In this document: one piece after another, positions 46,158 through 64,000 of the stretch
Numbering within the stretch: the first letter of the stretch is position 1
Layout: every line of letters starts with the position of its first letter
DNA from: an uncultured Eubacteriales bacterium
GTDB lineage: Bacteria; Bacillota; Clostridia; Oscillospirales; Oscillospiraceae
Direction: 5' to 3'
Assembly (NCBI GenBank): GCA_900319635.1
Contig: ONPF01000010.1
Span: 1 to 64,000, forward strand
Length of the DNA: 64,000 nucleotides
Translations under genes and position numbers: made by a program
Notes under the pieces: model-generated
Database searches by the model: none
What the model was told of the DNA's origin: nothing
Seen by the model: only the letters and a program-made list of their open reading frames with translations

Positions 46158-46940
46158 TCACTCTTTTTGCGTTTGAGAGCCGGGGAAATAGGGACAGTCG
46201 CGGTACAGGCACTCCCGGTTTGCGGGGAAATAGCGGCAGGAGACCTTGCCCAGGGGCATCTCCACGCCCAGCAGCTCCTCCGTAAAGGCCGCGGCGCGGG
46301 TGATGGCGAGTCTGCCGGTGCGCTTGCAGCAGCGTGGGCCGCCCACATCGGCCAGGGTATTCAGGCAGTCTGCAACCAGCCGCTGCGGGATCGGCCAGGC
46401 GTCCTTGTGGACAGGGTTGGAGCCCAGAAGAATGCTCATGTAGATCCCGGCGCCCGCCGCCGCACCGCAGACGCCCCAATAGCCGCAGGTGCCGCCGGGC
46501 ACCTGGGAGGCGCGGCGCACCGCCTCGCGCAGGGCTTTTTCCAGCTCGATCCCGCCGCCGTTGTTGCGATAGGCGGTCAGCAGCACGCAGGGGACGATGA
46601 CGTGGTGCTCCGGCCCGTGCATGTGCACCTGGCGCAGCGCGACCACCTGCTCGAAGAGCGCCAGCGGATCCTTTTCCCTGCTGGCCAACAGGAGCGGGAT
46701 GAAGAAGGCAATGGATGCGGATTCATGGCAGCTGTCGCAGACGAAGTGGCCTTCTTCACAGGCGCAGTTTGCCTCAGCCTCTCTGCCGCATATGGCGCAG
46801 CGAAGAGGCCTTGTCTCTCCGAAATAGACCAGGGGCTTTCCGCAGAGGAGACAGCCCGTTTTGTGCTGTGCCCTGTCCGGCGCGGGGGCCGGGGGGCAGC
46901 AGCAGGTCTCGCCCTCTTGTTTCTTTTCGATTTCCGTCAT
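46158..46940 (-). CDS. DUF5714-type cysteine-rich protein of the Mo-hydroxylase accessory operon
   Basis: The 260-residue protein has an N-terminal zinc-ribbon-like region with CLLCG, CAICG and CACEEGHFVCDSCH (about 30-75). A helical domain follows with conserved GGTCGYWGVCGAAAGAGI and a late CxxxxxxCLYRDCPYF cluster. I recognise this as the DUF5714 family, found with radical SAM genes of this locus type. A cofactor-binding or metal-binding role is likely, but no reaction is known. Its start overlaps the CoA ligase stop by four bases. It is the last gene of the operon. Confidence 0.7.
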   Translation of the reverse strand: MTEIEKKQEGETCCCPPAPAPDRAQHKTGCLLCGKPLVYFGETRPLRCAICGREAEANCACEEGHFVCDSCHESASIAFFIPLLLASREKDPLALFEQVVALRQVHMHGPEHHVIVPCVLLTAYRNNGGGIELEKALREAVRRASQVPGGTCGYWGVCGAAAGAGIYMSILLGSNPVHKDAWPIPQRLVADCLNTLADVGGPRCCKRTGRLAITRAAAFTEELLGVEMPLGKVSCRYFPANRECLYRDCPYFPGSQTQKE

Positions 46941-48112
46941 ATTTCCTCCACCTTTCTTTTCCCCGCATACAGGCTGCGGTCCTCCGGTCTCACCGGGCGA
47001 AGTTCTGTTTTGGCGTCCAGCGCGGGAAGCCTGCCCTCGCCGCAGGTCAGGATCTGCAGATGCAGCCCTCCGTTTCGTCTCTCCGCCCGGTAGTCACAAA
47101 CGAAGGGCAGCGAAAACAGCGTCTCATCCAGCGCCGCGAGCTCCGCCGTCTCCTTCCGGTGCACGGTATCGAGCCGCAGCACTTCGCTGCCGCAGGGGCA
47201 CTTGTCCGGGATCACCCGGGTATAGTCTCCGGTGCGGTAGCGGATCAGCGGCATGGCCTCCATGCCGATGGTGGTGATGATCAGCTCGCCGGTCTCCCCC
47301 GGCGGGAGCGGGCGGCCCTGCTCATCCACGATCTCGGCGATCACGTGGTTTTCTCGCAGATGCATGCCCTCATGGGCCGGGCAGCAGATCGCCCCGCCCA
47401 GGGCCATCTCCCGGGAGCCGTAGTGGGGAAAGAGGCGGCTCTGCAGGATCGCCTCGCAGCCTTTCAAAACCGCGTCGGGGCAGGCGTCGCCGCTTACGAG
47501 CGCACGCCGCAGGCTGCCTCGCCCGCACACCCGCAGCAGGGAGAGGAGCTGTACCGGCATGCCCACAAAGGTGTCCGGTCTTTCTGTTTCCAGCAGCTTG
47601 GCAAATTCGCCGTAGCTGAGCCCGACGCCCAGCTTGAGCGGTCTGGCGCCGAGGCGCTCCACCGCCTCCGCGATCAGCTCCCCGAGGCCGTGGGGGCCGG
47701 AGAAGGGAAAGCAGATCATGGTGACGCTGCCGGGAAAGATCAGCTCGCCAAGGCCCGCCATAAAGAGCTCCACCGTGCGCGCGCAGTCCCCCTCGGTGTA
47801 GAACACGCGCTTGGCAGCGCCGGTGGTGCCGGAGGTGGCGTCGGAGAGCACGCGCCGGATCTCCGCCTGGGAGCAGAGCAGCAGCCCCGGCGCATGGTGC
47901 GCCAGATCCTCGTCCGTCGTAAAGGGGAGAGAGGCAAGGTCGGAAAGAGAATCAAGATGATCGGGCAGCTCCCGGTAGAAGCCGCCCCGCTCCTTTTCCC
48001 GCTTTAGCAGGGCGTTGAGCTTCCGGAGCTGCAGCTCCTCGATGCTGGCTCTGGTGACACAAGGAAGCCCCTCCTGCGCGCGCAGAAGAGCGTCGATCCG
48101 GGAAAGGCTCAT
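46937..48112 (-). CDS. PaaK-like AMP-dependent acyl-CoA ligase (DVU_1553-type)
   Basis: The 391 residues belong to the adenylate-forming superfamily, phenylacetate-CoA-ligase branch. The phosphate loop is DATSGTTGAAKRVFYT at about 92-107, followed by HYGSREMALGG near 222 and the RYRTGDY hinge region near 295 with a CPCGS cysteine pair just after. The family activates a carboxylate as acyl-AMP and normally forms a CoA thioester. It overlaps the radical SAM gene and the DUF5714 gene by four bases each. In this context it may activate a carboxylate of a cofactor or a peptide. Confidence 0.83.
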   Translation of the reverse strand: MSLSRIDALLRAQEGLPCVTRASIEELQLRKLNALLKREKERGGFYRELPDHLDSLSDLASLPFTTDEDLAHHAPGLLLCSQAEIRRVLSDATSGTTGAAKRVFYTEGDCARTVELFMAGLGELIFPGSVTMICFPFSGPHGLGELIAEAVERLGARPLKLGVGLSYGEFAKLLETERPDTFVGMPVQLLSLLRVCGRGSLRRALVSGDACPDAVLKGCEAILQSRLFPHYGSREMALGGAICCPAHEGMHLRENHVIAEIVDEQGRPLPPGETGELIITTIGMEAMPLIRYRTGDYTRVIPDKCPCGSEVLRLDTVHRKETAELAALDETLFSLPFVCDYRAERRNGGLHLQILTCGEGRLPALDAKTELRPVRPEDRSLYAGKRKVEEI

Positions 48113-49428
48113 CGGTACAGCGCCTCCCCGTCCTGGTTCGTCAGATTATAGGCGCAGAAGGGCACCAGCCCATAGCGGCTGTCCACCTCGCAGATGTGGC
48201 AGCGGCGCAGCCGATCCAGATCCAGGTTCCACGCATCCTGAAACACCATGCCGGACACGGCAAAGGTACTGCGTCGGGCCTCCTCCAGGAAGGCGTCCAG
48301 GGAGGATGTCTCGGTAAGGGTGTCATCCTCGTCAAAGGCTGACACAGTGCCGCTCCACTGGTCTGCCACAGACGTACGGGAATCGTCGGAGCTGGTGCAG
48401 CAGCAGCCGCCGCTCTGGCGGCGGGGGAGGCATTTGAGCGTTCCGTTCGGATGAATGCGATAGCTGGCATGGAAGGAGCAGTAGGCACTCTCCGCCCCGC
48501 CCCCGTAAAAATCGGAGGCGCGGAGCATACCCTCGGTTTGCTCTTCGATCAGGGCCAGGAGCTTCGGAATGGTGATGGGCCGCTCCGGACGCTTCAGCGC
48601 GCAGCGGCCGAAATAGCTCAGGGGCTGAAAATGTACGCCGCGGACTGCGGGGGCCATCTCCAGCGCAAAGCGCAAAATCGCCCCGACCTGATCCTCATTC
48701 ACGCCCCGCGCGATCACCGGCACCAGCACGATGCCCAGCCCCGCCGCGGCACAGGCTTCGATGCAGCGCTTTTTCTCCTCCAGCAGCGGCCGACCGCGAA
48801 GCGTTATGTAAACCTGATCGTCCAGTGCGTCGAACTGCAGGAACACGGTGTTGAGCCCCGCCTCCCGGAGCGTTTCGGCATAGCCCGGCTCCGCGGCGAG
48901 ACGCAGCCCGTTGGTATTGAGCTGGAAGAAGCCGAAGCCCTTTTCCCGGCCCAGGCGGATGATCCTGGGCAGGTCGTCCCGCACGGTCGGCTCCCCGCCG
49001 GAGAGCTGGATGTTGAACGGGCCGCCGTGGGCCATCAGATACTCGTATTGCTTTTCGATCTCCGTGAGCGGCAGATCCGGCGCGGGCTCCTCCCCGGCGG
49101 CGGCAAAGCAGACCGGGCAGCGCAGGTTGCAGCGCCGCGTCAGCTCCAGCAGCATGCAGCAGCCCTTGCGCAGATGCTCGGTGCAGAGACCGCAGTCCCT
49201 GGGGCAGCCCTTTTCCGGCGCCCGCCCCTCCCGCGGAGGATCGACGGCGGTATTTTCGCTGTTCCAGCGGAGATACGAGGCCAGATTGCCCTCCCAGATC
49301 AAAGCGGAAAAAGCGCCGTGCTCCTCACAGCGCTTGTCGAGATAGACGCCGTCCTTTTCCGAACGCTTCTGTGCGTCTACGACGCGCAGGCACACGGGGC
49401 AGACGCTTTTGGTTTTTCCGATAATCAT
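48109..49428 (-). CDS. radical SAM protein, TrsS-like
   Basis: The 439-residue protein starts at ATG 49428, overlapping the previous stop (ATGA). The radical SAM motif CNLRCPVC lies at about residues 100-107 and is followed by SGGEPTVRDDL. N-terminal cysteines (SVCPVC, then KGCPRDCGLC) and C-terminal cysteines (SGGCCCTSS, then RRCHICEV) suggest auxiliary clusters of the SPASM or related type. Related proteins in other genomes are reported as selenoproteins, as I recall, but this copy has no in-frame TGA. The enzyme is probably the chemical centre of the locus; its substrate is unknown. Confidence 0.85.
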   Translation of the reverse strand: MIIGKTKSVCPVCLRVVDAQKRSEKDGVYLDKRCEEHGAFSALIWEGNLASYLRWNSENTAVDPPREGRAPEKGCPRDCGLCTEHLRKGCCMLLELTRRCNLRCPVCFAAAGEEPAPDLPLTEIEKQYEYLMAHGGPFNIQLSGGEPTVRDDLPRIIRLGREKGFGFFQLNTNGLRLAAEPGYAETLREAGLNTVFLQFDALDDQVYITLRGRPLLEEKKRCIEACAAAGLGIVLVPVIARGVNEDQVGAILRFALEMAPAVRGVHFQPLSYFGRCALKRPERPITIPKLLALIEEQTEGMLRASDFYGGGAESAYCSFHASYRIHPNGTLKCLPRRQSGGCCCTSSDDSRTSVADQWSGTVSAFDEDDTLTETSSLDAFLEEARRSTFAVSGMVFQDAWNLDLDRLRRCHICEVDSRYGLVPFCAYNLTNQDGEALYR

Positions 49429-49850
49429 AACAGTCCTCGCTCCGACAGGATCTCCATGCACTTTTCATAGGTCGCGGCGATGATCTGCGGGCAGTACTCC
49501 ACGCGCTTGGCGGGGTTGCCGCGGGTGATGTCCCGGCAGTCGATCCCGCCGTAATCGGCGGTGATCTCGTCCTCAAACCAGCGGGTGAATTCGCCCAGCG
49601 CCGGCTTATGCTCCGGATCATCCATGCCGGTGTCCTCGCCCTTCCCCGTGAAATAGGAGATCACGCAGGCGCCGCCGGTCATGCAGCCGCAGCAGTTCTG
49701 GGAAAAGCCCACGCCGCCGTTGAGGCCGCCCATGGCCTTCACAAGCCCGGGGTTTTCCTCCCCCAGGGTCTCCAGCATCAGGATCGCCAGGATCTGGCCG
49801 CAGAAGTAGCCGTAGCGGCTCAGCTCCATCACCCGTTCAAAAAGATCCAT
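49425..49850 (-). CDS. C-GCAxxG-C-C family protein (DVU_1555-type)
   Basis: The 141-residue protein from ATG 49850 has the family pattern: a first cysteine in GYFCGQILAILML (about 15-27), CCGCMTGGACVISYF near 53-67, and later cysteines in GIDCRDI and EYCPQII. Such proteins are putative redox or metal-binding partners often found in anaerobes. It lies five bases after the methyltransferase gene and overlaps the radical SAM gene, so expression is tightly linked. A role as electron donor or cluster carrier for the radical SAM enzyme is inferred. Confidence 0.82.
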   Translation of the reverse strand: MDLFERVMELSRYGYFCGQILAILMLETLGEENPGLVKAMGGLNGGVGFSQNCCGCMTGGACVISYFTGKGEDTGMDDPEHKPALGEFTRWFEDEITADYGGIDCRDITRGNPAKRVEYCPQIIAATYEKCMEILSERGLL

Positions 49851-49855
49851 CCTTG

Positions 49856-50368
49856 TCAGTCCTTTCTTCCGATCAGCAGCCAATAGCTGCTCTTTCCCCT
49901 CGGGCGTTCCCAGCAGGGCGCCTCGCCGCGCCACAGCGCCTCCAGATAATAGTCCCGCCACGCCTCCGTCAGATCCTCAGCCCTCAGCAGCGCAAAGCCG
50001 GCCTCTCGCAGGAGGAGCTCCGGAGAGGTAAAAAACAGATCGGACAGCAGCAGCTTTCCGCCGGGGCGCAGCAGGCGAAACGCCTCCCGCAGGGCCCCCG
50101 GCTGGTCGCCGGAGACGAAGAAGGCGCACTGGCTGAGCACGGCGTCAAAGCTGCCGCCGGGATAAGGGGCGTGCAGCAGATCGCCCCGTCTGATCCAGGG
50201 CGAGCGCGGCGCCAGATCGATCCCCTCCGCCTGAAAGCCGAGACCGCGCAGCAGCGCAACGGTCTCCCCCGCGCCGGCGCCCATGTCCAGCACCGAGGCG
50301 CCGGCCGGCAGCTCCGCCAGCTCCAGCATGCGGCGCGTATGGGCCTCGCCGCCCGGGTGCGCGTTCAT
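49856..50368 (-). CDS. class I SAM-dependent methyltransferase (DVU_1556/TrsM-type)
   Basis: The 170-residue enzyme from ATG 50368 has SAM motif I VLDMGAGAGETVALL (about 27-41), the acidic residue of motif II in AEGIDLAPRS, and motif IV/post region FDAVLSQCAFFV and LLRPGGKLLLSDLFF. It is compact, with a short C-terminal cap ending SSYWLLIGRKD. It overlaps the redox protein gene by four bases. The methyl acceptor is unknown and may be a cofactor or a product of the neighbouring radical SAM enzyme. Confidence 0.85.
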   Translation of the reverse strand: MNAHPGGEAHTRRMLELAELPAGASVLDMGAGAGETVALLRGLGFQAEGIDLAPRSPWIRRGDLLHAPYPGGSFDAVLSQCAFFVSGDQPGALREAFRLLRPGGKLLLSDLFFTSPELLLREAGFALLRAEDLTEAWRDYYLEALWRGEAPCWERPRGKSSYWLLIGRKD

Positions 50369-50586
50369 TTGTCCTCCAGCGCCCGCTCCACCGAGGCGAC
50401 CTTCCCCAGCGCCAGCTCCTCCGGCACATAGACGAAGCCGCAGCTGGGGCAGACCGGCAGCTCCACGGGGAAGCCGTTGTCCAGATACATGAACTTGGCC
50501 TTGCCCTTGATAAGCGGCACGCCGCATTTGACGCAGCGGAGCTTGCCCTGCGGGTCGATGGTATAATAGTTTTTCTCGATCGCCAT
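50365..50586 (-). CDS. small zinc-ribbon/rubredoxin-like redox protein (DVU_1557-type)
   Basis: The 73-residue protein has two CxxC knuckles, CVKCG (about 18-22) and CPSCG (about 46-50), separated by a beta hairpin with KGKAKFMYLDNGFPVELPV. The layout fits a zinc ribbon or rubredoxin-like iron site. It lies three bases after the dicluster oxidoreductase gene and overlaps the methyltransferase. It probably passes electrons or delivers a ligand within this pathway. Confidence 0.75.
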   Translation of the reverse strand: MAIEKNYYTIDPQGKLRCVKCGVPLIKGKAKFMYLDNGFPVELPVCPSCGFVYVPEELALGKVASVERALEDK

Positions 50587-50589
50587 GGT

Positions 50590-52878
50590 TCAGCCCTCCC
50601 GTTTGACAACGTTCATCCGGTGGCTCCAGGCGCGGTGCACCAGATAGCCCCCGTCCGCGGGGCTGAACTTGACCCAGAAGGTGGCGTTGCCCACACGGCG
50701 GCGCGCGACCAGCAGGCCGTCCTCGTCCTGGATGGCCTCGCCGCTTGCGCGATAATCCTCCAGCACGGCGATCACATCGTCGGTCAGGATCATGCGCTCA
50801 TCCATCATCCGCCGTGCATCCTCGGTATAGTTCAGCTCGTAGTCCAGTTTTTCTTCCATGCTCTCCTCTCCCCACAGCTCGCACAGCAGCGAGCGTTTCA
50901 GCGCCAGCCGGTTCCGGCGTTTTTCGCTGAGATCCGGCGGCGCCCCGGCGTCCGTGCCGTAAACCAGCTCCAGCAGATGACAGGATTCCCGCCCCTGCCG
51001 GGCAAACCGATCCCGGCAGGCCATGCAGTAGGTCAGATAGGCCTCGTCGCTGCGCTCCAGGCACTGCTCGGTCATCTCCCCCGCCACCTCCCGGTTTGCG
51101 TAGGCGGTAAGACCGCCGTAGCCGCAGCAGGGGGAGCGGTCGCCGGAATAGGGGGTGTCCGTCAGGCGCACGCCCAGCGCTTCCGCCAGGCGGCGGATGC
51201 CGGCCTGGGTGGCGGCATCGCCCCGGGCGCCGCAGGAGTCGTGCAGCGCCATCGGGCGCTCCAGGCGGCGGACGCCCTCGGGCAGACCGATCTCCTCCAG
51301 CACCTCCCAGACGCCGCGCAGCTTCTTTACGCCCTGCTCTCTGAGCTCCCTGGCGCAGCTGGGGCAGCCGGCGATCACGATCGGATCGCCCAGACGGGCA
51401 AGCTCCCGATCCAGCAGCTCCTGGGTCTGCTGCGCCAATTCCGTCCGGCCGGCCCAGTCGGCAATGGCGCCGCAGCAGCCCAGCATCAGCGCCACGCCGC
51501 CGTCGAGCCGCGCGCAGAGATCCTCATAGGCCGCCCGCACGGTGTCCGGCGCGATGGCCGCAGCCTGGCAGCCGGGGAAAAAGACGTAGCGGCAGCTCTC
51601 ATAACCCGGCTGAGGCCGCGCCAGAAAGGCGTCGCCGTTGGAAAAGAGCATGTCCAGCAGCGCAAATTCGTGGGGCGCAAGGGGCATTTTATCCGTGGAA
51701 ACCATGTTCTGCCGCGCCAGGTGGCAGACACGGGCCATATCAAAGCCGTTGGGGCAGACCACCGTGCACTGTCCGCAGAGGGAGCAGGCGTTCATGGGCT
51801 TGTTGAGCTGGTGGTCGCCCATGATGATCTGGGTGTTGTTGTAGATTTCCCGGGCCAGAAGTCCGGGATGCTTTTTGTAATGTCTGAGATAGGCGCAGCT
51901 TTTCAGGCACTCCTCGCAGTGGCACTGGATGCAGCGCCCGGCCTCTTCGATGGCCTGCTCCCTGGAATAGCCGCCATCCGGGACAGCCACACGGCGCAGC
52001 TTTTTTGCCGCCGAGAGGTCGGTGTAGAGTCTGCTCTCCGCCGCGCCCTCCTGCCCGCGGGTATTGCGGGGATCCAGCTTCTGCGCCAGACGGTCCACCG
52101 TCAGCGCCGCTTTCTTCGCGCCGAAGGCCGCGTCCAGCACGCCCTCTGTCGCCCCGCTGACCAGGCGCTCTTCCTCGCAGATCATCAGCTCCGGGATCGG
52201 CTCGCTCTCCGGAAAGAGCCTCTTCCTGACCTCGTCCGAGGCGCAGAGCACATCAAAGGCAGACTTCTGCTGCTCATAAAACGCCGCGTCCAGGCGGCAG
52301 CCGCATACGAATCGGATCTCCTTGCCCTTCAGCCGCTTGAGCTCCAGGGCGAAGGCAGTCTCGTCCAGAAAAGGCGCGGCACGGCGGAGATAGGCCTCCG
52401 GATCCTCTTCCTCACAGAACACCGTGACGGGATAGGCCTTCTTTTCCAGCTCCCCCGCCAGCAGCAGCGCAAAGAGCCCGGAGCCGAAGACGGCGGTCTT
52501 CTGCCGCTTGCTTGTGCGAAAGATGCCGCCGAGCCGGGACTGCTCGCCGAAGCGGGCCACCGCCCGCTCCACCTCCCGGATGGCCGGAGCGTCGCCAATC
52601 TCGCCCAGACGGCATTTGCCCTCGCAGGGCGCTTCGCAGCCCCGGGACAGGATCAGCGGGAAGGGCGCGATCTTTTCATAGATCTGCAGGGCCTTTTTGA
52701 AGTTGCCGTCCGCCGCCGCCTTGAGCAGAGCGCGGGTATCCAGCTTCAGCGGGCAGGCCGCGCTGCAGAAGGGCGGCTGCTCGTAGACGCAGCGGGCCAC
52801 CATGCTCTCCATCTCTTCCTTGGAGATCTTGTTGACCTTATAGACGTGGGTCGAGCCCCGTTCCTGGATCTGAGGCAA
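50590..52878 (-). CDS. nucleotide-disulfide oxidoreductase-like / CCG-dicluster protein (DVU_1558-type)
   Basis: The best start is TTG 52878, with GGGAGGTG six bases upstream, giving 762 residues. An N-terminal Fe-S domain like that of glutamate synthase small subunit has CSAACPLKLDTRALL and CEAPCEGKC. A Rossmann segment follows (VFGSGLFALLLAGEL near 127). Next come a ferredoxin-like dicluster region (CIQCHCEECLKSC, CSLCGQCTVVCP) and two CCG/HdrB-like modules (FFPGCQ, LGCCG, GCPSC; DSCG, SPCCGYGG, CMAC). A short C-terminal domain closes it. It likely moves electrons between pyridine nucleotide or ferredoxin and the hydroxylase or radical SAM enzyme. Confidence 0.82.
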   Translation of the reverse strand: MPQIQERGSTHVYKVNKISKEEMESMVARCVYEQPPFCSAACPLKLDTRALLKAAADGNFKKALQIYEKIAPFPLILSRGCEAPCEGKCRLGEIGDAPAIREVERAVARFGEQSRLGGIFRTSKRQKTAVFGSGLFALLLAGELEKKAYPVTVFCEEEDPEAYLRRAAPFLDETAFALELKRLKGKEIRFVCGCRLDAAFYEQQKSAFDVLCASDEVRKRLFPESEPIPELMICEEERLVSGATEGVLDAAFGAKKAALTVDRLAQKLDPRNTRGQEGAAESRLYTDLSAAKKLRRVAVPDGGYSREQAIEEAGRCIQCHCEECLKSCAYLRHYKKHPGLLAREIYNNTQIIMGDHQLNKPMNACSLCGQCTVVCPNGFDMARVCHLARQNMVSTDKMPLAPHEFALLDMLFSNGDAFLARPQPGYESCRYVFFPGCQAAAIAPDTVRAAYEDLCARLDGGVALMLGCCGAIADWAGRTELAQQTQELLDRELARLGDPIVIAGCPSCARELREQGVKKLRGVWEVLEEIGLPEGVRRLERPMALHDSCGARGDAATQAGIRRLAEALGVRLTDTPYSGDRSPCCGYGGLTAYANREVAGEMTEQCLERSDEAYLTYCMACRDRFARQGRESCHLLELVYGTDAGAPPDLSEKRRNRLALKRSLLCELWGEESMEEKLDYELNYTEDARRMMDERMILTDDVIAVLEDYRASGEAIQDEDGLLVARRRVGNATFWVKFSPADGGYLVHRAWSHRMNVVKREG

Positions 52879-52908
52879 GGTACGCACCTCCCATGATAAT
52901 GATAAACC

Positions 52909-52967
52909 GGGGATGTGGGACGATCGTCCCACATCCCCATTATAGCATTGCGTATCGGATTTGAAAA
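52909..52967 (-). promoter_or_regulatory. internal promoter and 30-bp perfect palindrome
   Basis: On the minus strand TATAAT (52944-52939) has a weak TTTTCA (52967-52962) 17 bases upstream. Directly downstream, over the start site, lies a perfect palindrome of 15-base arms (52909-52938; half GGGGATGTGGGACGA). It may be a repressor operator or a leader hairpin. It gives the seven-gene accessory operon a control separate from the mop gene. Confidence 0.55.
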
Positions 52968-52969
52968 GC

Positions 52970-56043: not shown

Positions 56044-56050
56044 GTTATAA

Positions 56051-56142: not shown

Positions 56143-57117
56143 TCAAGTGTTGAGACGGCGCGACTTTGTCAGCACCAGGGTGCCGCAGACGTCGCACAGG
56201 GGAACCGCCGGCAGCGCGCAGCCGAGTTCCCCCTCATAGCGCTCCAGCGCCCTTGCCACACCGGGAAGCTTCGGGTTGGCCCAGTCATGCAGCAGCAGAA
56301 AGCCGCCGGCGGAGAGCCGCGGCCAGAACCAGCGCAGGCCGCTGAGCGTGCTCTCCTCCAGATCCACGTCCAGGGAGACCAGGGCGAAGCGCAGCTCCTC
56401 CAGCCCCTCCGCCGTTCCGGGGAAGAGGCCCCTGCGGATCTCTGCCCGCTCCGGATGGGGCAGCAGGGAGAGCAGCTTTTTTGCGTCGGCAAGCCGGTGG
56501 GCCTCCACCAGCCCCGCGGCCTGGCCCCCGGCCTCCTCCTCGGCAAAGCCGGAGAAGGTGTCAAAGAGCCAGAGCCTCCGCTTTGGCAGCAAGGCGTTGA
56601 TGCAGCGGGCAAAGGCACCCCGATATACCCCCAGCTCCGCCGCGTCCCCGGGGATGCCCTCCAGCCTTCGGCAGATGCCCTCCAGGCTTCGCAGCCGCAC
56701 GCAGTCGTTTTCCAGATCCCGATCCTGAAGAGGGCTGTGCTCCAGCCACATCGGATCCCGCATGGCCCTTTGAGGACGGCGCAGCTCCTCCAGCAGCTCC
56801 TCCGGCAGCACCCGGGCAGCCCGCTCATAGGAGAGATTTCTGTCCTGCAGGCTCCAGTTGTTCCTGCAAAACAGCAGCTTTTCCCGGGGAAAGCCCAATT
56901 CCTCCGCCTTCGCGGCAATGGCCTCCGCCTGGCGGCTCGCCACCAGGATCAGATCGAAGTCCCTCCCCCGCAGCGCGTCCGGCGCCATGATCGGCCGCCC
57001 CAGAAAGCTCCCGTCTCGCCCTTCTCCGTCCAGAAAGCCGCAGACTTCCCGCGGATCCAGCCCCCGATCCAGCAGATCTCCGGCGCCGCAGCCTGTGCCC
57101 CAGACATAGATTTTCAT
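56143..57117 (-). CDS. TylF/MycF-like O-methyltransferase with N-terminal Rossmann domain
   Basis: The 324-residue protein from ATG 57117 has an N-terminal nucleotide-binding-like domain (YVWGTGCGAGDLL, then DFDLILVASRQ, about 1-80). A TylF-type methyltransferase domain follows: AELGVYRGAFARCI near 165, LWLFDTFSGF near 187 and LVSLDVDLEESTLSGLRWF near 250, with metal-binding acids in LDVD and LLLHDW. Related two-domain proteins act on sugars. It sits between the two halves of the molybdenum island, on the minus strand as a single gene, and may or may not be part of it. Confidence 0.8.
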   Translation of the reverse strand: MKIYVWGTGCGAGDLLDRGLDPREVCGFLDGEGRDGSFLGRPIMAPDALRGRDFDLILVASRQAEAIAAKAEELGFPREKLLFCRNNWSLQDRNLSYERAARVLPEELLEELRRPQRAMRDPMWLEHSPLQDRDLENDCVRLRSLEGICRRLEGIPGDAAELGVYRGAFARCINALLPKRRLWLFDTFSGFAEEEAGGQAAGLVEAHRLADAKKLLSLLPHPERAEIRRGLFPGTAEGLEELRFALVSLDVDLEESTLSGLRWFWPRLSAGGFLLLHDWANPKLPGVARALERYEGELGCALPAVPLCDVCGTLVLTKSRRLNT

Positions 57118-57189
57118 GCCTTCATCCCCTTTTCCCTTCTTTCGATTCAATTATATCCGGAAAAATGGCCCTTGTACAGACAGTTTTGC

Positions 57190-57270: not shown

Positions 57271-58194
57271 ATGCGCGTCGGCGCTGTGATCGTGGCGGCG
57301 GGCATGTCCTCCCGGATGGGGGACTTCAAGCCCATGCTGAATATCGGTTCCATCTCCATTGCCCAGCGGATCGTGGCCACCTTCCGTCAGGCGGGGGTCA
57401 CCCGCATCGTGGTGGTCACGGGCTACAACGCCCAGCAGCTGGAGCGGCATCTCGCCAACAACGGCATCGTATTCCTCCGAAACGAGGACTATGCCGGCAC
57501 CCAGATGTTCGACTCCGCCAAGATCGGCCTCTCCTACCTGCAGGACAAGTGTGACCGCATTCTCTTCACTCCGGTGGACATCCCGCTCTTTACGGCCATG
57601 ACCGTCTCTTCCCTTCTGCTCTCCAAGGCGGAGCTTGCCTGCCCTGTCTGCATGGGCAAGCCCGGACATCCCCTTCTGATCTCTTCTTCGCTTCTGCCCC
57701 GGATCCTGGCCGATTCCGGGGAGGGCGGTCTCCAGGGGGCCATCCGCCGCTGCGGGGCGGAAATGACCAGGATCCCGGTGGACGACGCGGGGATCCTCCA
57801 CGACGCGGACACGCCGGAGGACTATCGGGCTTTGCTGGATTACCACAACAAGCAGCTGATCCGCCCGGAGATCACCGTGTCCCTTTCCCGGGAACGGCCC
57901 TTTTTTGACGAGCGTACCGCCATGCTCCTAGCCCTGGTGGAGGAGACGAAGTCCGTGCGCACCGCCTGCCAGCGCATGCAGATCTCCTACTCCGGCAGCT
58001 GGAACATCATCCACGCGCTGGAGAGTCAGCTTCGCTTTCCGCTGCTGGAGCGCAGCCAGGGCGGCGCGAACGGAGGCGAGAGCCGCCTGACGGAAAAAGG
58101 AAAACGGCTCCTGGATTGTTACCAGCGCTATGCCCAGCGCCTGCGGCAGGATGCGGCGGCGCTGTTTGAAGAATACTTCGGAGCGGAATTATGA
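57271..58194 (+). CDS. MobA-like NTP transferase fused to ModE-like HTH (DVU_1551-type)
   Basis: The 307 residues have an N-terminal nucleotidyltransferase domain (about 1-190) with VIVAAGMSSRMGDFKPML (the GG/AAG-x-x-SRMG nucleotide loop) and FTPVDIPLF, as in MobA/MocA enzymes that attach CMP or GMP to molybdopterin. A C-terminal winged helix (about 215-305) reads TKSVRTACQRMQISYSGSWN and SRLTEKGKRLL, the ModE/LysR-type DNA-binding pattern. So one protein may both finish the dinucleotide cofactor and regulate genes. RBS AAAGGAGGTTCGCTGT precedes the ATG. It overlaps the next gene by four bases. Confidence 0.85.
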   Translation: MRVGAVIVAAGMSSRMGDFKPMLNIGSISIAQRIVATFRQAGVTRIVVVTGYNAQQLERHLANNGIVFLRNEDYAGTQMFDSAKIGLSYLQDKCDRILFTPVDIPLFTAMTVSSLLLSKAELACPVCMGKPGHPLLISSSLLPRILADSGEGGLQGAIRRCGAEMTRIPVDDAGILHDADTPEDYRALLDYHNKQLIRPEITVSLSRERPFFDERTAMLLALVEETKSVRTACQRMQISYSGSWNIIHALESQLRFPLLERSQGGANGGESRLTEKGKRLLDCYQRYAQRLRQDAAALFEEYFGAEL

Positions 58195-59243
58195 GTCGAA
58201 AGATCTGGCTGATCCGCCACGCCATGCCGGATATCCCCCTGGGGGAGCGCTGGTGCGTGGGCGGGAGATCGAATTTCCCCCTGGGACGCCTGGGAAAGCT
58301 GCAGGCGGCCCTGCTGCCCTTCCTGCCGGAGCTTCAAGGTCTGGACGCTGTGTTCTGCAGCAGCCTGCTCCGCGCCAGGGAGACCGCCCTGCCCCTCTGC
58401 CCCGCCCCGCGGGAGATGCCCGGGCTCCAGGAGCAGGACATGGGCCTCTGGGACGGGCTCTCCTTCCGGGAGATCCGGCAGCGCTATCCCGCGCTCTATG
58501 CCGCCCGGGAGCAGGATCCGGCTCTGCTGCCCCAGGGGGCGGAGAGCGTGGAGGCCGTGCGCCGTCGCATGACCGAGGGGATCCTCCGCTGCCTGCGGGA
58601 GAGCGAAGGCACTATTGCCATCGTGAGCCACAAGGGCTCCATCGCGAGCATCACCGGCCAGCGGGAAAAGCTGGGCTACACCTCCCTGACTCTGCTGGAG
58701 GCGGAGCGGGAGGAGCTGCGCGTCCTCTCCGTGGGGCAGGCCCCCCACCCGGCGCTGACGGAGGAAGTGTGCCGCGTGCTGATGCATGCCGCCGGCGCAG
58801 AAGCGCGCATCGCCCACTGCCGCGCGGTGGCGGAGCTGGCGGAGGAGCTGCGGAAGGCGCTTGCGGATAAGGGGCTCCCGCTGGATCGGGACACCCTTCG
58901 CGCCGCTGCCCTGCTCCACGACATTGCCCGGGATCTGCCGGAGCATGCAGCGGTGGGCGCCCTCTGGCTGCGGGAGCTGGGCTATCCGGCGGTGGCCGAC
59001 TGCGTCCGGCAGCACCACGACCCGGATTCCACTGCTCTCGGCGAGGCGGCGCTCCTGTACCTGGCCGACAAGGCGGTAAGGGGAGGCGAACGGGTCTCCG
59101 TCGAGGAGCGCTTCGCCGCAAGTCTCGGCAAATGCAAAACGCCGGAGGCTCTGGCCGCCCATCGGCGGCGCCTGGAAGCAGCAAGAGAAATTCTGAAAAA
59201 CATCAAAACCGTCTGCGGGGAGCAGAGCTTCCCGGAGCTGTAA
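58191..59243 (+). CDS. histidine phosphatase fused to HD-domain hydrolase
   Basis: The 350 residues start with a histidine phosphatase domain (RHAMPDIP catalytic motif at about 9-16, CSSLLRARETA near 57, second histidine in IVSHKGS near 146). From about 190 an HD domain follows, with HAAGAEARIAHCRAVAELAE, the metal-binding LLHDIARDLPEH and VRQHHDPD. Both are phosphohydrolase types, so the fusion could trim a phosphorylated or nucleotide intermediate, for example of the molybdenum cofactor. It is coupled by four-base overlap to the NTP transferase gene. Confidence 0.8.
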   Translation: MSRKIWLIRHAMPDIPLGERWCVGGRSNFPLGRLGKLQAALLPFLPELQGLDAVFCSSLLRARETALPLCPAPREMPGLQEQDMGLWDGLSFREIRQRYPALYAAREQDPALLPQGAESVEAVRRRMTEGILRCLRESEGTIAIVSHKGSIASITGQREKLGYTSLTLLEAEREELRVLSVGQAPHPALTEEVCRVLMHAAGAEARIAHCRAVAELAEELRKALADKGLPLDRDTLRAAALLHDIARDLPEHAAVGALWLRELGYPAVADCVRQHHDPDSTALGEAALLYLADKAVRGGERVSVEERFAASLGKCKTPEALAAHRRRLEAAREILKNIKTVCGEQSFPEL

Positions 59244-59261
59244 ACAGAGGAGGAGTACCGC

Positions 59262-60287
59262 ATGAAGCTGTTGAAGACCGAGGACGCGGTGGGCCATGTG
59301 CTCTGCCACGACATCACCCAGATCATCAAGGACGAGAAGAAGGGTCCGGTGTTCCGCAAGGGGCACATCATCCGTCCCGAGGACGTGCCTGTGCTGCTCA
59401 GCGTGGGCAAGGATCATGTCTACATCTGGGAAAACAATGAAAACATGCTCCACGAGGATGAGGCCGCGGATATCCTGCGGCAGATCTGCCAGGGGGAGCA
59501 CATGCACGCCACCGAGCCCAAGGAGGGCAAGATCGAGCTCATCGCGGATATAGACGGTCTGCTGCTCATCGACGTGGAGCGGCTCCGCGCCGTCAATTCC
59601 CTGGGAGAGATGATGATCGCCACCCGCGCCTCCGGCTTTTTCGTGAAGCAGGGCAGCAAGCTCTGCGGCACCCGGGTCATCCCCCTGGTCATCGAAAAGG
59701 AGAAGATGGAGCGGGCCAGAGCGGTGGCGGGGCCGGAGCCTCTGCTGCGCCTGGTGCCGGTGCGCCCGAGAAAATACGGTGTGGTCACCACCGGCAACGA
59801 GGTGTTCTACGGCCGCATCCAGGACACCTTCACCCCCGTCATCCAGGACAAGCTCCGGGAATACGGCTGCGAGATGGCGGAGCATGTGATCCTGAACGAC
59901 GACCATGAGAAGATCACCGCGGCCATCCGGGACATGCTGGACAAGGGCTGCGAGATGGTCTTCTGCAGCGGCGGCATGAGCGTGGATCCGGACGACAAGA
60001 CCCCGCTGGCGATCAAAAATACCGGAGCGAACATCGTCTCCTACGGGGCGCCGGTGCTGCCGGGGGCCATGTTCCTGGTCTCCTATATGCCGGACGGGCG
60101 GCCGGTCTGCGGTCTTCCCGGCTGCGTCATGTATGCCAGACGCACCATCTTTGATTTGCTGCTGCCCTATCTGGTGACGGACACCCCCATCACCAAAGAA
60201 TATCTGGCCGGTCTGGGCCACGGCGGACTCTGTCTCAACTGCCCGGTCTGCCGCTTCCCGGACTGCGGCTTCGGCAAGGGCGTATAA
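59262..60287 (+). CDS. MoeA-like molybdopterin-binding protein with Cys-rich C terminus
   Basis: The 341-residue protein contains a MoCF-biosynthesis domain (about 165-305; VVTTGNEVFYGRIQD and FCSGGMSVDPDDKTP are the substrate-loop motifs of MoeA/MogA proteins). The N-terminal half has a distinct beta-rich domain. The C terminus ends in LCLNCPVCRFPDCGFGKG, a four-cysteine cluster not found in classical MoeA. It probably binds molybdopterin and inserts molybdenum, or acts on the mature cofactor for this locus. RBS GAGGAGGAGTACCGC precedes ATG 59262; it lies 18 bases after the phosphatase gene. Confidence 0.82.
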   Translation: MKLLKTEDAVGHVLCHDITQIIKDEKKGPVFRKGHIIRPEDVPVLLSVGKDHVYIWENNENMLHEDEAADILRQICQGEHMHATEPKEGKIELIADIDGLLLIDVERLRAVNSLGEMMIATRASGFFVKQGSKLCGTRVIPLVIEKEKMERARAVAGPEPLLRLVPVRPRKYGVVTTGNEVFYGRIQDTFTPVIQDKLREYGCEMAEHVILNDDHEKITAAIRDMLDKGCEMVFCSGGMSVDPDDKTPLAIKNTGANIVSYGAPVLPGAMFLVSYMPDGRPVCGLPGCVMYARRTIFDLLLPYLVTDTPITKEYLAGLGHGGLCLNCPVCRFPDCGFGKGV

Positions 60288-60308
60288 GCATCCCTGTTTT
60301 TCTTCCGG

Positions 60309-60333
60309 TATAAGCGCGTAAAACGCGTTTATA
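60309..60333. promoter_or_regulatory. 25-bp palindrome, candidate molybdate-responsive operator
   Basis: TATAAGCGCGT (60309-60319), AAA, ACGCGTTTATA (60323-60333) pair at 10 of 11 positions, 40 bases before modA. The position suits a repressor or activator site. The ModE-like HTH of the NTP transferase encoded 3 kb upstream is a candidate ligand; the sequence only loosely resembles the E. coli ModE box. Confidence 0.5.
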
Positions 60334-60373
60334 TAAATTCATTTCCCTGAAAAACGGGAAGGAGGAAGTAAAC

Positions 60374-61306
60374 ATGAAAAAAATCCTGGCACTGCTGCTT
60401 GCGCTGTGCATGATGCTTGCGCTGGCGGCCTGCGGCGAGACGGAGGCCCCCAAGACCGAGGAGCCCCAGGACGCCGCAGAACCCGAGACCCCCGTCGAGC
60501 CCGAGACCCCCGAAGAGGCCCCCGAAGCGGAAACGGCCGAGCCCGAAGCCCCCGCCGAGCCCGCTGAGCCCATCGAGATCGTGGTCTTCGCCGCAGCGTC
60601 CATGACCGAGACGCTGAACGAGCTGAAGACGGTCTATGAGGCCGAGCACCCCGGCGTCACCATCCTCTACAACTTCGACTCCTCCGGCACTTTGAAGACC
60701 CAGATCGAGGAGGGCGCCGCCTGCGACCTGTTCATCTCCGCCGGGCAGAAGCAGATGAACCAGCTGGACATCAGCGCCAGCCCCGATGTGAACACCGACG
60801 GTCTGGACTTCGTACAGGAGGGAACCCGCATCAACCTGCTGGAGAACAAGGTGGTGCTGGTCGTTCCCGTGGGCAACCCCAAGGGCATCGAGAGCTTTGA
60901 CATGCTGGCCCAGCTGCTGGAGACGGGCGACGTGCTGATGGCCATGGGCGGCGCCGACGTCCCCGTGGGCCAGTACACCCAGAAGATCCTGGCCTGGTAC
61001 GGGCTGGACGAGGCGGAGCTCTCCGCCGCCGGCTGCATCAGCTACGGCGGCAACGTGAAGCAGGTCACCACCCAGGTGGAAGAGGGCAGCGTGGACTGCG
61101 GCGTGGTCTACTGCACCGACGCCTTCTCCTCCGATCTGACGGTTGTGGACAGCGCCACCGCCGAGATGTGCGGCCAGGTCATCTACCCCGCCGCCGTGAT
61201 GAAGAACGCGCCCCACCCCGCCGAGGCTCTGGAATTTCTGAGCTTCCTGCAGAGCGAGGAGGCCATGGCCGTGTTTGAGTCGGTGGGCTTCTCTCCCGCG
61301 CCCTGA
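60374..61306 (+). CDS. modA: molybdate ABC transporter substrate-binding lipoprotein ModA
   Basis: The 310-residue lipoprotein has a signal peptide with lipobox LALAAC (Cys near 20) and a Glu/Pro-rich linker to about 65. The ModA domain begins VVFAAASMTETLNELKTVYE, with oxyanion-binding serines in AAASMTE and NFDSSGTLKTQIE and later GVVYCTDAF. It captures molybdate (or tungstate) outside the cell. RBS AAGGAGGAAGTAAAC precedes ATG 60374. A stable hairpin separates it from modB. Confidence 0.94.
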   Translation: MKKILALLLALCMMLALAACGETEAPKTEEPQDAAEPETPVEPETPEEAPEAETAEPEAPAEPAEPIEIVVFAAASMTETLNELKTVYEAEHPGVTILYNFDSSGTLKTQIEEGAACDLFISAGQKQMNQLDISASPDVNTDGLDFVQEGTRINLLENKVVLVVPVGNPKGIESFDMLAQLLETGDVLMAMGGADVPVGQYTQKILAWYGLDEAELSAAGCISYGGNVKQVTTQVEEGSVDCGVVYCTDAFSSDLTVVDSATAEMCGQVIYPAAVMKNAPHPAEALEFLSFLQSEEAMAVFESVGFSPAP

Positions 61307-61313
61307 CTTGCTT

Positions 61314-61341
61314 GCCCGGGCGGGCAAAAGCCCGCCCGGGT
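61314..61341 (+). other. intercistronic hairpin modA-modB
   Basis: GCCCGGGCGGGC (61314-61325), AAAA, GCCCGCCCGGGT (61330-61341) with no U tract. It probably stabilises or partly attenuates the mRNA so that the binding protein is made in excess of the membrane subunit. Confidence 0.65.
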
Positions 61342-61361
61342 GATTCCTTCTGGAGGGAACG

Positions 61362-62060
61362 ATGAACTTTTTTGAATGGTTGGGCAAGGCGGATCTGTTC
61401 CCCCTGTGGAACTCCCTGCGCATTGCCGCCATCAGCTGCGTGCTGGTGTTCTTTCTGGGCATCTTCTTTGCCTACTACGCGGCCAGGCTCCCCCGCTGGC
61501 TCAAGGGCGTGCTGGACGTGATCCTGACCCTGCCCCTGGTGCTGCCGCCCACGGTCTGCGGCTATCTGCTGCTGCTGGTCTTCGGCGTGAACCGCCCGGT
61601 GGGAGCCTGGCTTCTCAGCCACGGGATCCAATTCGTCATGAAATGGTACGGCGGAGTCCTGGCCGCCTCTCTGGTGGCCTTTCCCCTGATGTACCGCACG
61701 GCCCGGGGCGCCTTTGAGAGCTTCGACAAAAACCTGGGCTACGCCGGGCAGACCCTGGGCCTTTCCAACAGCTATATCTTCTGGCGCGTGCGGATGCCGG
61801 CCTGCCGCCAGGGGATCCTGGCGGGCACGGTGCTGTCCTTCGCCCGGGCGCTGGGCGAATACGGCGCCACCAGCATGTTCATCGGTTACATTGAAGGCCG
61901 CACCGCCACCGTCTCCACCACGGTCTACATGCTCTACCAGAACAGCAAAAAGGATCCGGCGGTGCTCTATTGGGTACTGGTGAACCTGCTGATCAGCACG
62001 GTGGTGCTGCTGACGGTGAACCTGCTGGAGGCCCGACAGAAAAAGGCGGTGAAGGCATGA
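61362..62060 (+). CDS. modB: molybdate ABC transporter permease ModB
   Basis: The 232-residue permease has five to six helices and the cytoplasmic EAA loop, seen as AGQTLGLSNSYIFWRVRMPAC (split here: AGQTLGLSN, then FWRVRMPA) near 130-150. The PLVLPPTVCGYLLL segment after the second helix is typical of ModB. RBS TCTGGAGGGAACG precedes ATG 61362. Its stop overlaps the modC start by three bases. Confidence 0.94.
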   Translation: MNFFEWLGKADLFPLWNSLRIAAISCVLVFFLGIFFAYYAARLPRWLKGVLDVILTLPLVLPPTVCGYLLLLVFGVNRPVGAWLLSHGIQFVMKWYGGVLAASLVAFPLMYRTARGAFESFDKNLGYAGQTLGLSNSYIFWRVRMPACRQGILAGTVLSFARALGEYGATSMFIGYIEGRTATVSTTVYMLYQNSKKDPAVLYWVLVNLLISTVVLLTVNLLEARQKKAVKA

Positions 62061-63103
62061 GTCTGATCGTGGATATCCACAAGGATCTGGGCACTTTCGT
62101 GCTGGACGCCGCCTTCGAGGCGGAAAAGGGCGTCACCACCCTGCTGGGGCCCTCCGGCTGCGGCAAGAGCCTGACCCTCAAGTGCATCGCCGGCATCGAA
62201 AAGCCGGACAAGGGCCATATCGAGCTGGACGGCCGGGTGCTGTACGATTCGAAAAAGCACATCAACCTCCGTCCCCAGAGCCGGAACGTGGGCTATCTCT
62301 TCCAGAATTACGCGCTCTTCCCCAACATGACCCTGCGGCAGAACATCCTCTGCGGCATGCGGGCCGTCAAGGGCCGGGAGGAGAAGGAGCGCCGTCTGCG
62401 GGAGATGCTGACGATGATGCGGCTGGAGGGGCTGGAAAAGCACAAGCCCCAGCAGCTCTCCGGCGGCCAGCAGCAGCGGGCGGCCCTGGCCCGCATCCTG
62501 GTCAGTGAGCCGAAGCTTCTCATGCTGGACGAGCCCTTCTCCGCCCTGGACGCCCACCTGCGGGACGCTCTGAAGGTGGAGATGCGGGACATGCTGCAGT
62601 CCTTCGGCCGGGAGGTGCTGATGGTCACCCACAGCCGGGAGGAGGCCTACACCATGAGCGACAGCATCGCCGTCATGGACGAGGGTCGGCTTTTGACCTG
62701 CAAGCCCACCAAAAGCGTCTTTGCCGACCCCGGCAGCGTCCCCGCCGCGGTGCTGACCGGCTGCAAGAACATCGCCCCGGCCAGAAAGTGCGGGGAGCGC
62801 CAGGTGGAGGTGCCCTCCTGGGGCGTCCGCCTGACCACGGGGCAGCCTGTGGGAGATGGTCTTGCGGCCATCGGCATCCGCGCCCACTACTTTAACCCCG
62901 CCTCGCCTCAGAACCGCTTCCCGGTGGTCTATCAGGAGGAGCTGGAGGAGCCCTTTGAGCTCACCATCCAGTTCCGCTACGCCGGGCAGGATCCAAAGAG
63001 CGAGCCCATCTGGTGGCGGGTACCCAAGGACAGGCGCCCCGCCCAATTCCCGGCGGAGCTGGGCGTCTCCCCGGCGAATATCCTGTTGCTCTATGACATC
63101 TGA
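62057..63103 (+). CDS. modC: molybdate ABC transporter ATPase ModC
   Basis: The 348-residue ATPase shows Walker A GPSGCGKS (about 32-39), Q-loop LFQNYALFPNMT, signature [15 protein letters not shown] (about 135-149), Walker B LLMLDEPFSALD and the switch histidine in MVTHSREEA. The C-terminal 110 residues form a TOBE-like regulatory region. ATG 62057 overlaps the end of modB. It completes the molybdate importer and is followed by a terminator. Confidence 0.93.
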   Translation: MSLIVDIHKDLGTFVLDAAFEAEKGVTTLLGPSGCGKSLTLKCIAGIEKPDKGHIELDGRVLYDSKKHINLRPQSRNVGYLFQNYALFPNMTLRQNILCGMRAVKGREEKERRLREMLTMMRLEGLEKHKPQQLSGGQQQRAALARILVSEPKLLMLDEPFSALDAHLRDALKVEMRDMLQSFGREVLMVTHSREEAYTMSDSIAVMDEGRLLTCKPTKSVFADPGSVPAAVLTGCKNIAPARKCGERQVEVPSWGVRLTTGQPVGDGLAAIGIRAHYFNPASPQNRFPVVYQEELEEPFELTIQFRYAGQDPKSEPIWWRVPKDRRPAQFPAELGVSPANILLLYDI

Positions 63104-63117
63104 CCCTAACCAAAAGG

Positions 63118-63155
63118 AAAGCGCGTGCTTCGCAATCTGCGTCGCACGCGCTTTT
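63118..63155. terminator. bidirectional terminator after modC
   Basis: AAAGCGCGTGC (63118-63128) pairs with GCACGCGCTTT (63144-63154), followed by TTCG on the plus strand. On the minus strand the stem is followed by CCTTTTGG. Confidence 0.8.
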
Positions 63156-63164
63156 TCGGCTATT

Positions 63165-63674: not shown

Positions 63675-63776
63675 CACACATCATGCGCCCGCATAACACT
63701 TCCGATCCGACATGCCTGACGTACTCTCAAGGGGAAAAGGTTCGTCTACCTCAATTCCGAATTCCGTATTTCGAAT

Positions 63777-64000
63777 TCAGCAAACGCTCCCGTCCTCCAC
63801 CAGCACCTTCATGGTGCCGCCGCAGACCATGCCGTCGGACTCCGCCACGTCGCCGGTCAGGTCGATGTCGATGATCTGATAGCGCCCGGTGCCGATGATC
63901 TTCACCGCGTCGCGGATCACGGCGCCCTCGCTGCAGCCGCCGCCGATGGATCCGGTGACCTTGCCCAGGGGGCTCACGGCCATCTTGGCCCCCGCCGCCC
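63777..64000 (-). CDS. XdhC/CoxI-family Mo-hydroxylase maturation factor, 5' end outside the window
   Basis: The visible 74 codons read AKMAVSPLGKVTGSIGGGCS, followed by EGAVIRDAVKII and VAESDGMVCGGTMKVLVED, ending at TGA 63777-63779. This is the XdhC N-terminal domain pattern (GAKM, GSIGGG, CGG). XdhC proteins bind the molybdenum cofactor and help insert or sulfurate it in xanthine dehydrogenase-type enzymes. Only a short C-terminal piece follows the CGG motif, so this is a one-domain type. It supports the assignment of the island to a molybdenum hydroxylase. Confidence 0.85.
   Translation of the reverse strand, partial: AAGAKMAVSPLGKVTGSIGGGCSEGAVIRDAVKIIGTGRYQIIDIDLTGDVAESDGMVCGGTMKVLVEDGSVC

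Follow-up and report, generated by a model that had tools for sequence, protein, structure and literature searches.

A conserved Trs-type gene set around a Mop-type aldehyde oxidoreductase of an uncultured Oscillospiraceae bacterium suggests a dedicated chemical modification

The aldehyde oxidoreductase Mop of Desulfovibrio gigas is described, in the available text of PMC10223205, as an enzyme that carries a pyranopterin cytosine dinucleotide cofactor, is free of flavin adenine dinucleotide (FAD), does not need a sulfido ligand, and was served by flavodoxin as a partner. A related gene belongs to the set DVU_1551-1559 of Desulfovibrio vulgaris, the Trs neighbourhood, whose families are already named in NCBIfam (NF045645, NF045646, NF045663, NF045665-NF045669); the radical S-adenosylmethionine (SAM) member, TrsS, is ascribed, in the portion of PMC13188914 consulted, to Haft and Tolstoy 2025, and the D. 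vulgaris aldehyde oxidoreductase named in the accessible part of PMC10102598 is another, tungsten enzyme. Here we describe a variant of this real, conserved system in a stretch of 64,000 nucleotides (the window hereafter; contig ONPF01000010.1, assembly GCA_900319635.1) of an uncultured Eubacteriales bacterium of the Oscillospiraceae, in which the same families, in the same order, encode Mop, a dicluster oxidoreductase (DIC), a small two-knuckle protein (RDX), a methyltransferase, a C-GCAxxG-C-C protein, TrsS, and a ligase. The gene cluster suggests dedicated chemical modification, and we hold with high confidence that its accessory parts are functionally linked to Mop. An earlier interpretation made from the DNA letters (the sequence-only reading) had pointed to the same set in DVU_1551-1559, along with the lack of a proven function; six of the families indeed score over their NCBIfam cut-offs in the window, in conserved order, and no proven function was found in the literature searched.

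The locus has eight genes on the minus strand (46158-55636) and, divergent from them, a set for molybdenum cofactor (Moco) and molybdate functions (57271-63103). Mop, of the DVU_1559 family (52970-55636), scores 1412 bits against NF045668 (cut-off 1100); DIC (50590 to about 52845, the start being at 52845 or 52812), also recognized by Pfam, scores 796 bits against NF045663 (cut-off 530); and RDX, of the DVU_1557 family or DUF7479 (50365-50586), scores 93 bits against NF045645 (cut-off 60). The C-GCAxxG-C-C protein of the DVU_1555 family (49425-49850), the Tes-like TrsS (48109-49428), and the PaaK-like AMP-forming ligase of the DVU_1553 family (46937-48112), whose structural relatives are 4r1l and other PaaK structures, likewise pass, with 151 bits against NF045669 (cut-off 103), 592 bits against NF045646 (cut-off 490), and 326 bits against NF045666 (cut-off 300), respectively. 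The SAM methyltransferase of the DVU_1556 family (49856-50368) stays under its cut-off, with 119 bits against NF045667 (cut-off 155) and an alignment that runs only through position 127 of the 213 in the model, and so does the nucleoside triphosphate (NTP) transferase of the divergent side (203 bits, cut-off 315); judging by these matches, both appear related to the Trs set, diverged or split. The gene order, Mop, DIC, RDX, methyltransferase, C-GCAxxG-C-C protein, TrsS, and ligase, is that of most relatives, and four gene junctions are 4-base ATGA overlaps, given the starts inferred for the methyltransferase, C-GCAxxG-C-C, and TrsS genes.

The link of the accessory genes to the hydroxylase is most apparent from their distribution. 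In a sample of 398 genomes drawn from the phylum of the window, with hits counted over the NCBIfam cut-offs, TrsS is encoded in 24 and Mop in 26, with both in 22, TrsS only in two, Mop only in four, and neither in 370 (Fisher p about 5e-30, kinship ignored). The sequence-only reading had tied the accessory genes to the hydroxylase, and this is borne out by TrsS and Mop standing together in 22 genomes and apart in six; genome-wide, the families are not mostly found apart, with G413, G391, G132, and G266 as exceptions. Of the two TrsS-only genomes, G135 has a Mop fragment of 953 bits at the edge of a contig, and the other is G413; the Mop-only genomes are G131, G373, and G142, with TrsS-like proteins of 469, 456, and 332 bits, and G266, with none. 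Full-length DIC (>650 bits) is found in 25 genomes, all within the 26 possessing Mop, the one missing it being G142; weaker DIC relatives occur in eight further genomes without Mop over the cut-off, seven of which pass the DIC cut-off only with neighbouring pieces added. The ligase is recognized at E<=1e-75 in 26 genomes (24 over the cut-off), including 23 of the 24 TrsS genomes (22 over the cut-off; not in G135) and three, G131, G373, and G391, without TrsS over the cut-off. As to RDX, 29 of 71 chosen genomes encode it, namely 23 of the 24 TrsS genomes plus G131, G373, G266, G031, G591, and G600, and it was found in none of the eight genomes having only lower-scoring hydroxylases.

The same pattern is seen at closer range. 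Among 36 other genomes of the same genus, with Mop and TrsS each counted at E<=1e-50 (TrsS being over its cut-off in 27 of the 29 positives), 28 encode both, one Mop only, one TrsS only, and six neither (Fisher p 2e-5). The Mop-only genome is G017, whose contig stops just past the C-GCAxxG-C-C gene, and the TrsS-only genome is G031, which is 82% complete and also encodes RDX. Two types of TrsS exist in this genus (9 and 6 sequences), sharing 72-73% identity among members of one type and 42% across types. In four operons (L062, L065, L066, L067), TrsS is missing from its place between the C-GCAxxG-C-C gene and the ligase gene, and all four genomes encode the other, divergent type elsewhere, so that for these four the TrsS slot is empty only where a different TrsS exists. 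In both cases examined (L299, L300), the relocated TrsS adjoins a CobW/HypB/UreG-type GTPase, with XdhC nearby.

The set extends well beyond the Bacillota. From a scan with the Mop of Protein Data Bank entry 1sij, we used the best 80 of 311 related stretches, which by their record titles belong to sulfate reducers, Synergistaceae, Chloroflexota, Actinomycetota, and Bacillota. At least 8.5 kb of sequence lies downstream of Mop in 54 of these loci, and 47 of the 54 carry there, on the same strand, all six partners (dicluster, two-knuckle, methyltransferase, C-GCAxxG-C-C, TrsS, ligase), the exceptions being L109, L112, L119, L122, L131, L138, and L179. No TrsS is present in the stretch itself in 25 of the 80, many of these being short stretches; of 14 of their genomes that were queried, 12 encode TrsS over the cut-off, as do both reference genomes, those of L108 and L109, and the two that do not are the genomes of L117, where Mop ends some 300 bases from the end of the stretch, and L175. 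The TrsS of L119 is a broken frame at the usual place. A module unlinked from Mop is seen in L273 and L274, consisting of the methyltransferase, the C-GCAxxG-C-C protein, TrsS, the ligase, a MocA-like transferase, and an HD protein, and an XdhC neighbour, recognized as a member of the protein cluster whose profile picks the XdhC of the window, is found in 53 TrsS-bearing loci. The 1sij chain, which we take to be D. gigas Mop (1dgj presumably being that of D. desulfuricans), is represented by 11 PDB entries; the best match in the scan of relatives was 79%, and one genome encodes a Mop 100% identical to this chain over 305 residues. Downstream of that gene are DIC, RDX, methyltransferase, C-GCAxxG-C-C, TrsS, ligase, and HD genes, and upstream is a MoeA-like gene, with no NTP transferase match above threshold near it.

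The Mop of the window itself consists of two [2Fe-2S] and Moco domains (PF01799, PF00111, PF02738, PF20256), with no FAD domain found by Pfam, and its relatives of known structure, 1dgj and 1sij (also 1vlb), are full-length homologues with the same domains. As no FAD domain is present, electrons would be passed from Mop to DIC. The latter combines a GltD-like N-terminal part, a [4Fe-4S] dicluster, and two HdrB-like CCG motifs, and 25 of its cysteine columns, including those of both motifs, do not vary among the 104 sequences above 650 bits; the CCG spacing pattern (C..CC..CxxC) is recognized twice in 87 of these and once in 17. The C-GCAxxG-C-C protein is modeled as all-helical (pLDDT 95.8), and the match of this model to the split-Soret cytochrome c 1h21 (E 0.084, which is not significant; probability 1.00, TMq 0.67) hints at an iron centre.

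A distinctive feature is the end of RDX. The protein of the window has 73 residues and ends in VERALEDK. Among 117 distinct RDX C-termini, 116 reach the stop codon, and each of these has Lys as its last residue, in one and the same alignment column, the final three residues being EDK (113), EEK (2), or ESK (1). For eight other families from these loci, the commonest last residue reaches at most 44% (52 of 119, for Mop), and tail lengths vary in these eight families, least in the MoeA-like protein, with three lengths. The mean column entropy of RDX is 0.90 bits in the tail versus 1.86 in the body. In nine loci from eight genomes (L119 and L282 being one genome), DIC and RDX form a single open frame, with EDK still last; both the invariance of the C-terminal Lys and these fusions are observations of this analysis. 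In G373, the sole RDX adjoins TrsS, with Mop and DIC located on a different contig, and in L272 RDX sits inside the TrsS module.

Two known systems offer parallels to this arrangement. One is sHdr-LbpA with sLpl(AB) and LipS1/LipS2, for which the consulted part of PMC10332631 describes a cluster of an HdrB-type enzyme, a small carrier, a dedicated ligase, and radical SAM enzymes; the parallel is functional, as the family searches show no kinship of RDX and its neighbour ligase to LbpA and LplA. Another is LysW/ArgW, small metal-cysteine proteins that carry a substrate on the Glu of a C-terminal motif, according to the available portion of PMC10433800, with an architecture similar to that of RDX. 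RDX was rejected as a homologue of LysW, however: no sequence match is detected, the C-terminus is LEDK rather than EDWGE, and the neighbouring ligase is PaaK-like.

TrsS is, by sequence and by its model, nearest among characterised proteins to the tetraether lipid synthase: its closest solved relative is 7tol, Tes/MJ0619 (258 bits), and the AlphaFold model (pLDDT 87) matches this structure with E 6e-40 and TMq 0.84. Invariant in 88 of 88 TrsS sequences are C6, C9, C30, and H33 of a rubredoxin site, C71, C75, C78, and H81 of the FeS-N cluster, and C86, and the position mapped to Met439 of Tes is Met in 84 of 88 (the C-terminal mapping coming from a weak local alignment). The set of metallocofactor ligands of Tes thus appears to be kept, comprising the rubredoxin site, FeS-N with its His, the radical SAM cluster, and, subject to the same weak mapping, FeS-C with Met439; the ligand roles in Tes and a carbon-sulfur intermediate on its C-terminal cluster are described in the accessible text of PMC9433317. 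Unlike Tes, TrsS does not conserve the position of Tyr459, has the extra invariant C86, and falls below the cut-off of the Tes model (NF045702; 320 bits for the TrsS of the window, cut-off 450). Given this relationship and the carbon-sulfur intermediate of Tes, formation of a C-C or C-S bond at an unactivated carbon is, by analogy, likely the chemistry of TrsS. Pterin methylation, which is suggested by the Pfam zinc-ribbon name HMPTM, was dropped as the TrsS function, as MJ0619 is Tes and its pterin activity could not be corroborated, according to the part of PMC9433317 consulted. Selenocysteine was also dropped as a general feature of TrsS, with an in-frame TGA in one of 88 sequences and none in that of the window; the one case, at L206:9518 onward, has its TGA near the C-terminus and likely encodes selenocysteine. 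A separate observation concerns L239, from the genome of L144 (titled as a Desulfobacteraceae metagenome-assembled genome), where a protein scores 528 bits against NF045702, possibly representing, on the strength of this match, a bacterial tetraether enzyme.

From the observed co-occurrence, operon order, DIC-RDX fusions, and conserved cysteines, the explanation we prefer, held tentatively and at somewhat worse than even chances, is that these genes specify an aldehyde-oxidising redox complex and, with it, a private maturation module that loads the RDX tail. Mop would oxidise the aldehyde, electrons would flow from it to DIC, and RDX would be a partner or a C-terminal domain of DIC. The maturation part would comprise TrsS, the ligase, the methyltransferase, the C-GCAxxG-C-C protein, and often XdhC, a MocA-like transferase, and an HD/phosphatase protein, and it would build or attach an organic group, which may contain sulfur, on the C-terminal LEDK of RDX: the ligase might activate a carboxylic acid as an AMP ester, TrsS might create a C-C or C-S bond at an unactivated carbon in the manner of Tes, and the methyltransferase might cap the group. 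The loaded tail would then serve DIC, while XdhC and MocA would complete the ordinary molybdopterin cytosine dinucleotide (MCD) cofactor. A bolder form of the proposal, which we regard as doubtful, makes RDX a new protein-bound redox or acyl carrier, in which the side chain of the LEDK Lys or the terminal carboxylate would bear the group made by TrsS, the ligase, and the methyltransferase, as a lipoyl-like arm for an HdrB-type enzyme. As for the site of modification, our order of preference is the RDX tail, then the cofactor, then a free small molecule.

A number of points weigh against loading of the RDX tail. PaaK-fold enzymes usually make coenzyme A esters of free acids, and the invariant C-terminus can equally be a docking tail. 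RDX shows no kinship by sequence to known carrier proteins beyond generic zinc ribbons, and the position of Tes Tyr459 is not conserved in TrsS (Val in 65 of 88, with Tyr outside the six commonest residues). The co-occurrence tests are uncorrected for phylogeny. Some genomes, moreover, hold parts of the set only. In G266, which has Mop, DIC, and RDX in at least two copies each (EDK being kept in L288, the one read), TrsS and the ligase were not found, the assembly being fragmented. G132 has a Mop fragment of 1056 bits, under the cut-off, followed by 8.9 kb that contain none of the partners, and genome-wide it shows no DIC, ligase, or RDX and no TrsS over the cut-off. G413 encodes, in a row (L214:250-6256), a dihydrolipoyl dehydrogenase (TIGR01350, 477 bits), TrsS, a second TrsS-like protein, the ligase, and a DUF5714 protein, with Mop, DIC, and RDX not detected in the genome, and its relative G391 possesses the ligase and DUF5714 without Mop, DIC, and RDX. 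Another partial set is that of G142, where Mop is cut by the contig end and full DIC, the ligase, and RDX were not found. Several of these genomes have fragmented assemblies, though not every incomplete set can be dismissed on that ground.

The strongest point against the tail, and the one favouring a Moco-linked role, is a group of TrsS-like genes with a gene of the dimethyl sulfoxide (DMSO) reductase family directly downstream, an arrangement found in six of six genomes (G183, G403, G101, G142, G591, G600; loci L218, L219, L223, L294, L304, L305). Four of these six TrsS-like proteins score 332-363 bits against the TrsS model and group in the tree (branch support not inspected), and the other two share 57-59% identity with the G183 protein. 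MoeA and a MoeA-like protein with a Cys tail are also encoded in the operon of G183 (L218), as are, judged by reading, MobB and MobA. Within the four longer stretches, neither a ligase nor a match to the RDX model is found near the TrsS-like gene, and an RDX-like partner was therefore rejected for this group. Four open reading frames of 35-130 residues with two CxxC motifs do lie near these genes, three in L219 and one in L223. One of them, at L219:15822-15998, has 58 residues, ends in TEK, is 5.7 kb from the TrsS-like gene, and could be a zinc-ribbon protein.

The alternative that ranks next places an extra group, or a labile molybdenum ligand, on the molybdenum cofactor of Mop, from which purified enzymes may have lost it; we judge it rather unlikely. 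The DMSO-reductase and Mop enzyme superfamilies have little in common except Moco, which counts in its favour, as do the Moco genes of L218 and the neighbours of the module where it is unlinked from Mop: MocA-like and HD genes in L273 and L274, and XdhC in L289, L299, and L300. Assembly of MCD, in turn, requires no radical SAM, ligase, or methyltransferase steps, which counts against it. The absence of the sulfido ligand from purified D. gigas Mop is a further point for it, yet the genome encoding this Mop has the operon, and the enzyme carries ordinary MCD and is active without the sulfido ligand, as far as the available text of PMC10223205 goes. With ordinary MCD present despite the operon, a stable extra group on this cofactor is unlikely; a labile one may have been lost on purification. 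The extra group that the sequence-only reading had proposed for the cofactor is weakened by the same facts, and the DMSO-reductase-linked genes are what keeps it in play.

A second alternative, that the module makes a diffusible small molecule, either an organosulfur or other electron carrier for the HdrB-like sites of DIC or the very aldehyde that Mop oxidises, we consider improbable; the sequence-only reading had likewise offered a dedicated small molecule or substrate as its other option, which may still hold. It would agree with the two conserved CCG motifs of DIC, with TrsS and the ligase occurring in trans where unlinked, and with the dihydrolipoyl dehydrogenase gene directly upstream of TrsS in G413. 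On the other hand, alcohol dehydrogenase-like genes in 21 of 134 scanned stretches suggest oxidation of ordinary alcohols and aldehydes rather than of one dedicated substrate, and by eye no exporter-like protein is present among the extra clusters common to at least six loci. These dehydrogenase genes, of the iron type by eye and not from a family search (L127 is one example), hint at a route from alcohol through aldehyde to acid.

Finally, RDX could be no more than an electron carrier, perhaps one that reduces TrsS, its tail serving only to dock on Mop, DIC, or TrsS, while TrsS modifies Mop, DIC, or a lipid, as might be read from the DIC-RDX fusions, from RDX adjoining TrsS in G373 and lying within the TrsS module of L272, and from other Tes-like or TrsS relatives beside LGT genes in L295 and L296, a lipid context; this too is unlikely, as docking alone, in our judgement, seldom fixes the last residue throughout a family (116 of 116 Lys), and as no odd residue is reported for D. 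gigas Mop in the portion of PMC10223205 consulted.

D. gigas Mop, a textbook molybdenum enzyme, is inherited with at least six unexplained genes, of which the structural work consulted gives no account. If the RDX tail or the cofactor bears a group made by the Trs proteins, then both the physiological electron acceptor of this enzyme class and its maturation differ from what has been assumed, and a Tes-type radical enzyme would have a second, non-lipid job. Were RDX the carrier proposed above, the complex would have been studied for almost 40 years without that arm.

The Mop copy of the window has a peculiarity of its own, which the sequence-only reading had missed. Compared to same-genus copies, it shows gaps of 23 and 8 residues (69 and 24 bases, in frame; around 53461 and 53090), the second of which takes out AAGCGEAP, including the GCGE motif, and sets this copy apart from the otherwise homologous 1sij/1vlb and 1dgj. 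The Glu of the GxGE motif is presumably the catalytic residue of the xanthine oxidase family. Loss of this Glu as a trait of the family was rejected, as GCGE is present in 20 of 20 same-genus loci covering the region. Where the first of these gaps lies, the Mop of G017 has one that breaks the frame, which makes an assembly error possible for the window as well; the missing segments are perhaps such an error.

The genes on the divergent side and at the end of the operon distinguish the window from the DVU_1551-1559 set. The NTP transferase, MocA-like (57271-58194, plus strand; TIGR03310 115 bits, TIGR00637 61 bits), bears a ModE-like helix-turn-helix domain in place of HD, and HD is joined instead to a CobC-like histidine phosphatase (58191-59243, plus; PF00300, PF01966), so that the DVU_1551 model NF045665 is split over the two genes, matching the first at positions 2-201 of 359 (the 203 bits given above) and the second at 194-358 (137 bits). 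A MoeA-like molybdopterin-binding protein (59262-60287, plus; PF00994, 89 bits) with a Cys-rich tail evident in its sequence follows, then the molybdate transporter genes modA (60374-61306), modB (61362-62060), and modC (62057-63103), all on the plus strand (PF13531, PF00528, and PF00005), and, on the minus strand, XdhC (63780-64895 of the contig; PF13478, PF02625). All the genes named in the sequence-only reading are confirmed by NCBIfam and Pfam matches, XdhC being real and mostly beyond the window, which holds some 220 bases of it (63780-64000). The operon is extended by a Cys-rich DUF5714 protein (46158-46940, minus; PF18978, 206 bits; NF045648, 147 bits, cut-off 600), a distant relative of the selenoprotein MbdU.

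Three neighbours complete the picture. A small protein with a His-rich HGHGHE tail, encoded directly before Mop (55690-55953, minus) and without a Pfam family, has counterparts in 14 of the 15 stretches retrieved from the same genus (L062-L076) as well as in L194, L196, L202, and L204, where it does not always adjoin Mop, and its membership in the system is uncertain. A serine dehydratase alpha-chain family protein (44448-45779; PF03313) adjoins the operon; this family, we assume, includes cysteine desulfidases, and the gene might thus represent a sulfur source near the operon. Between Mop and the divergent Moco genes is a TylF-like methyltransferase (56143-57150; PF05711), and a similar protein is encoded in L074.

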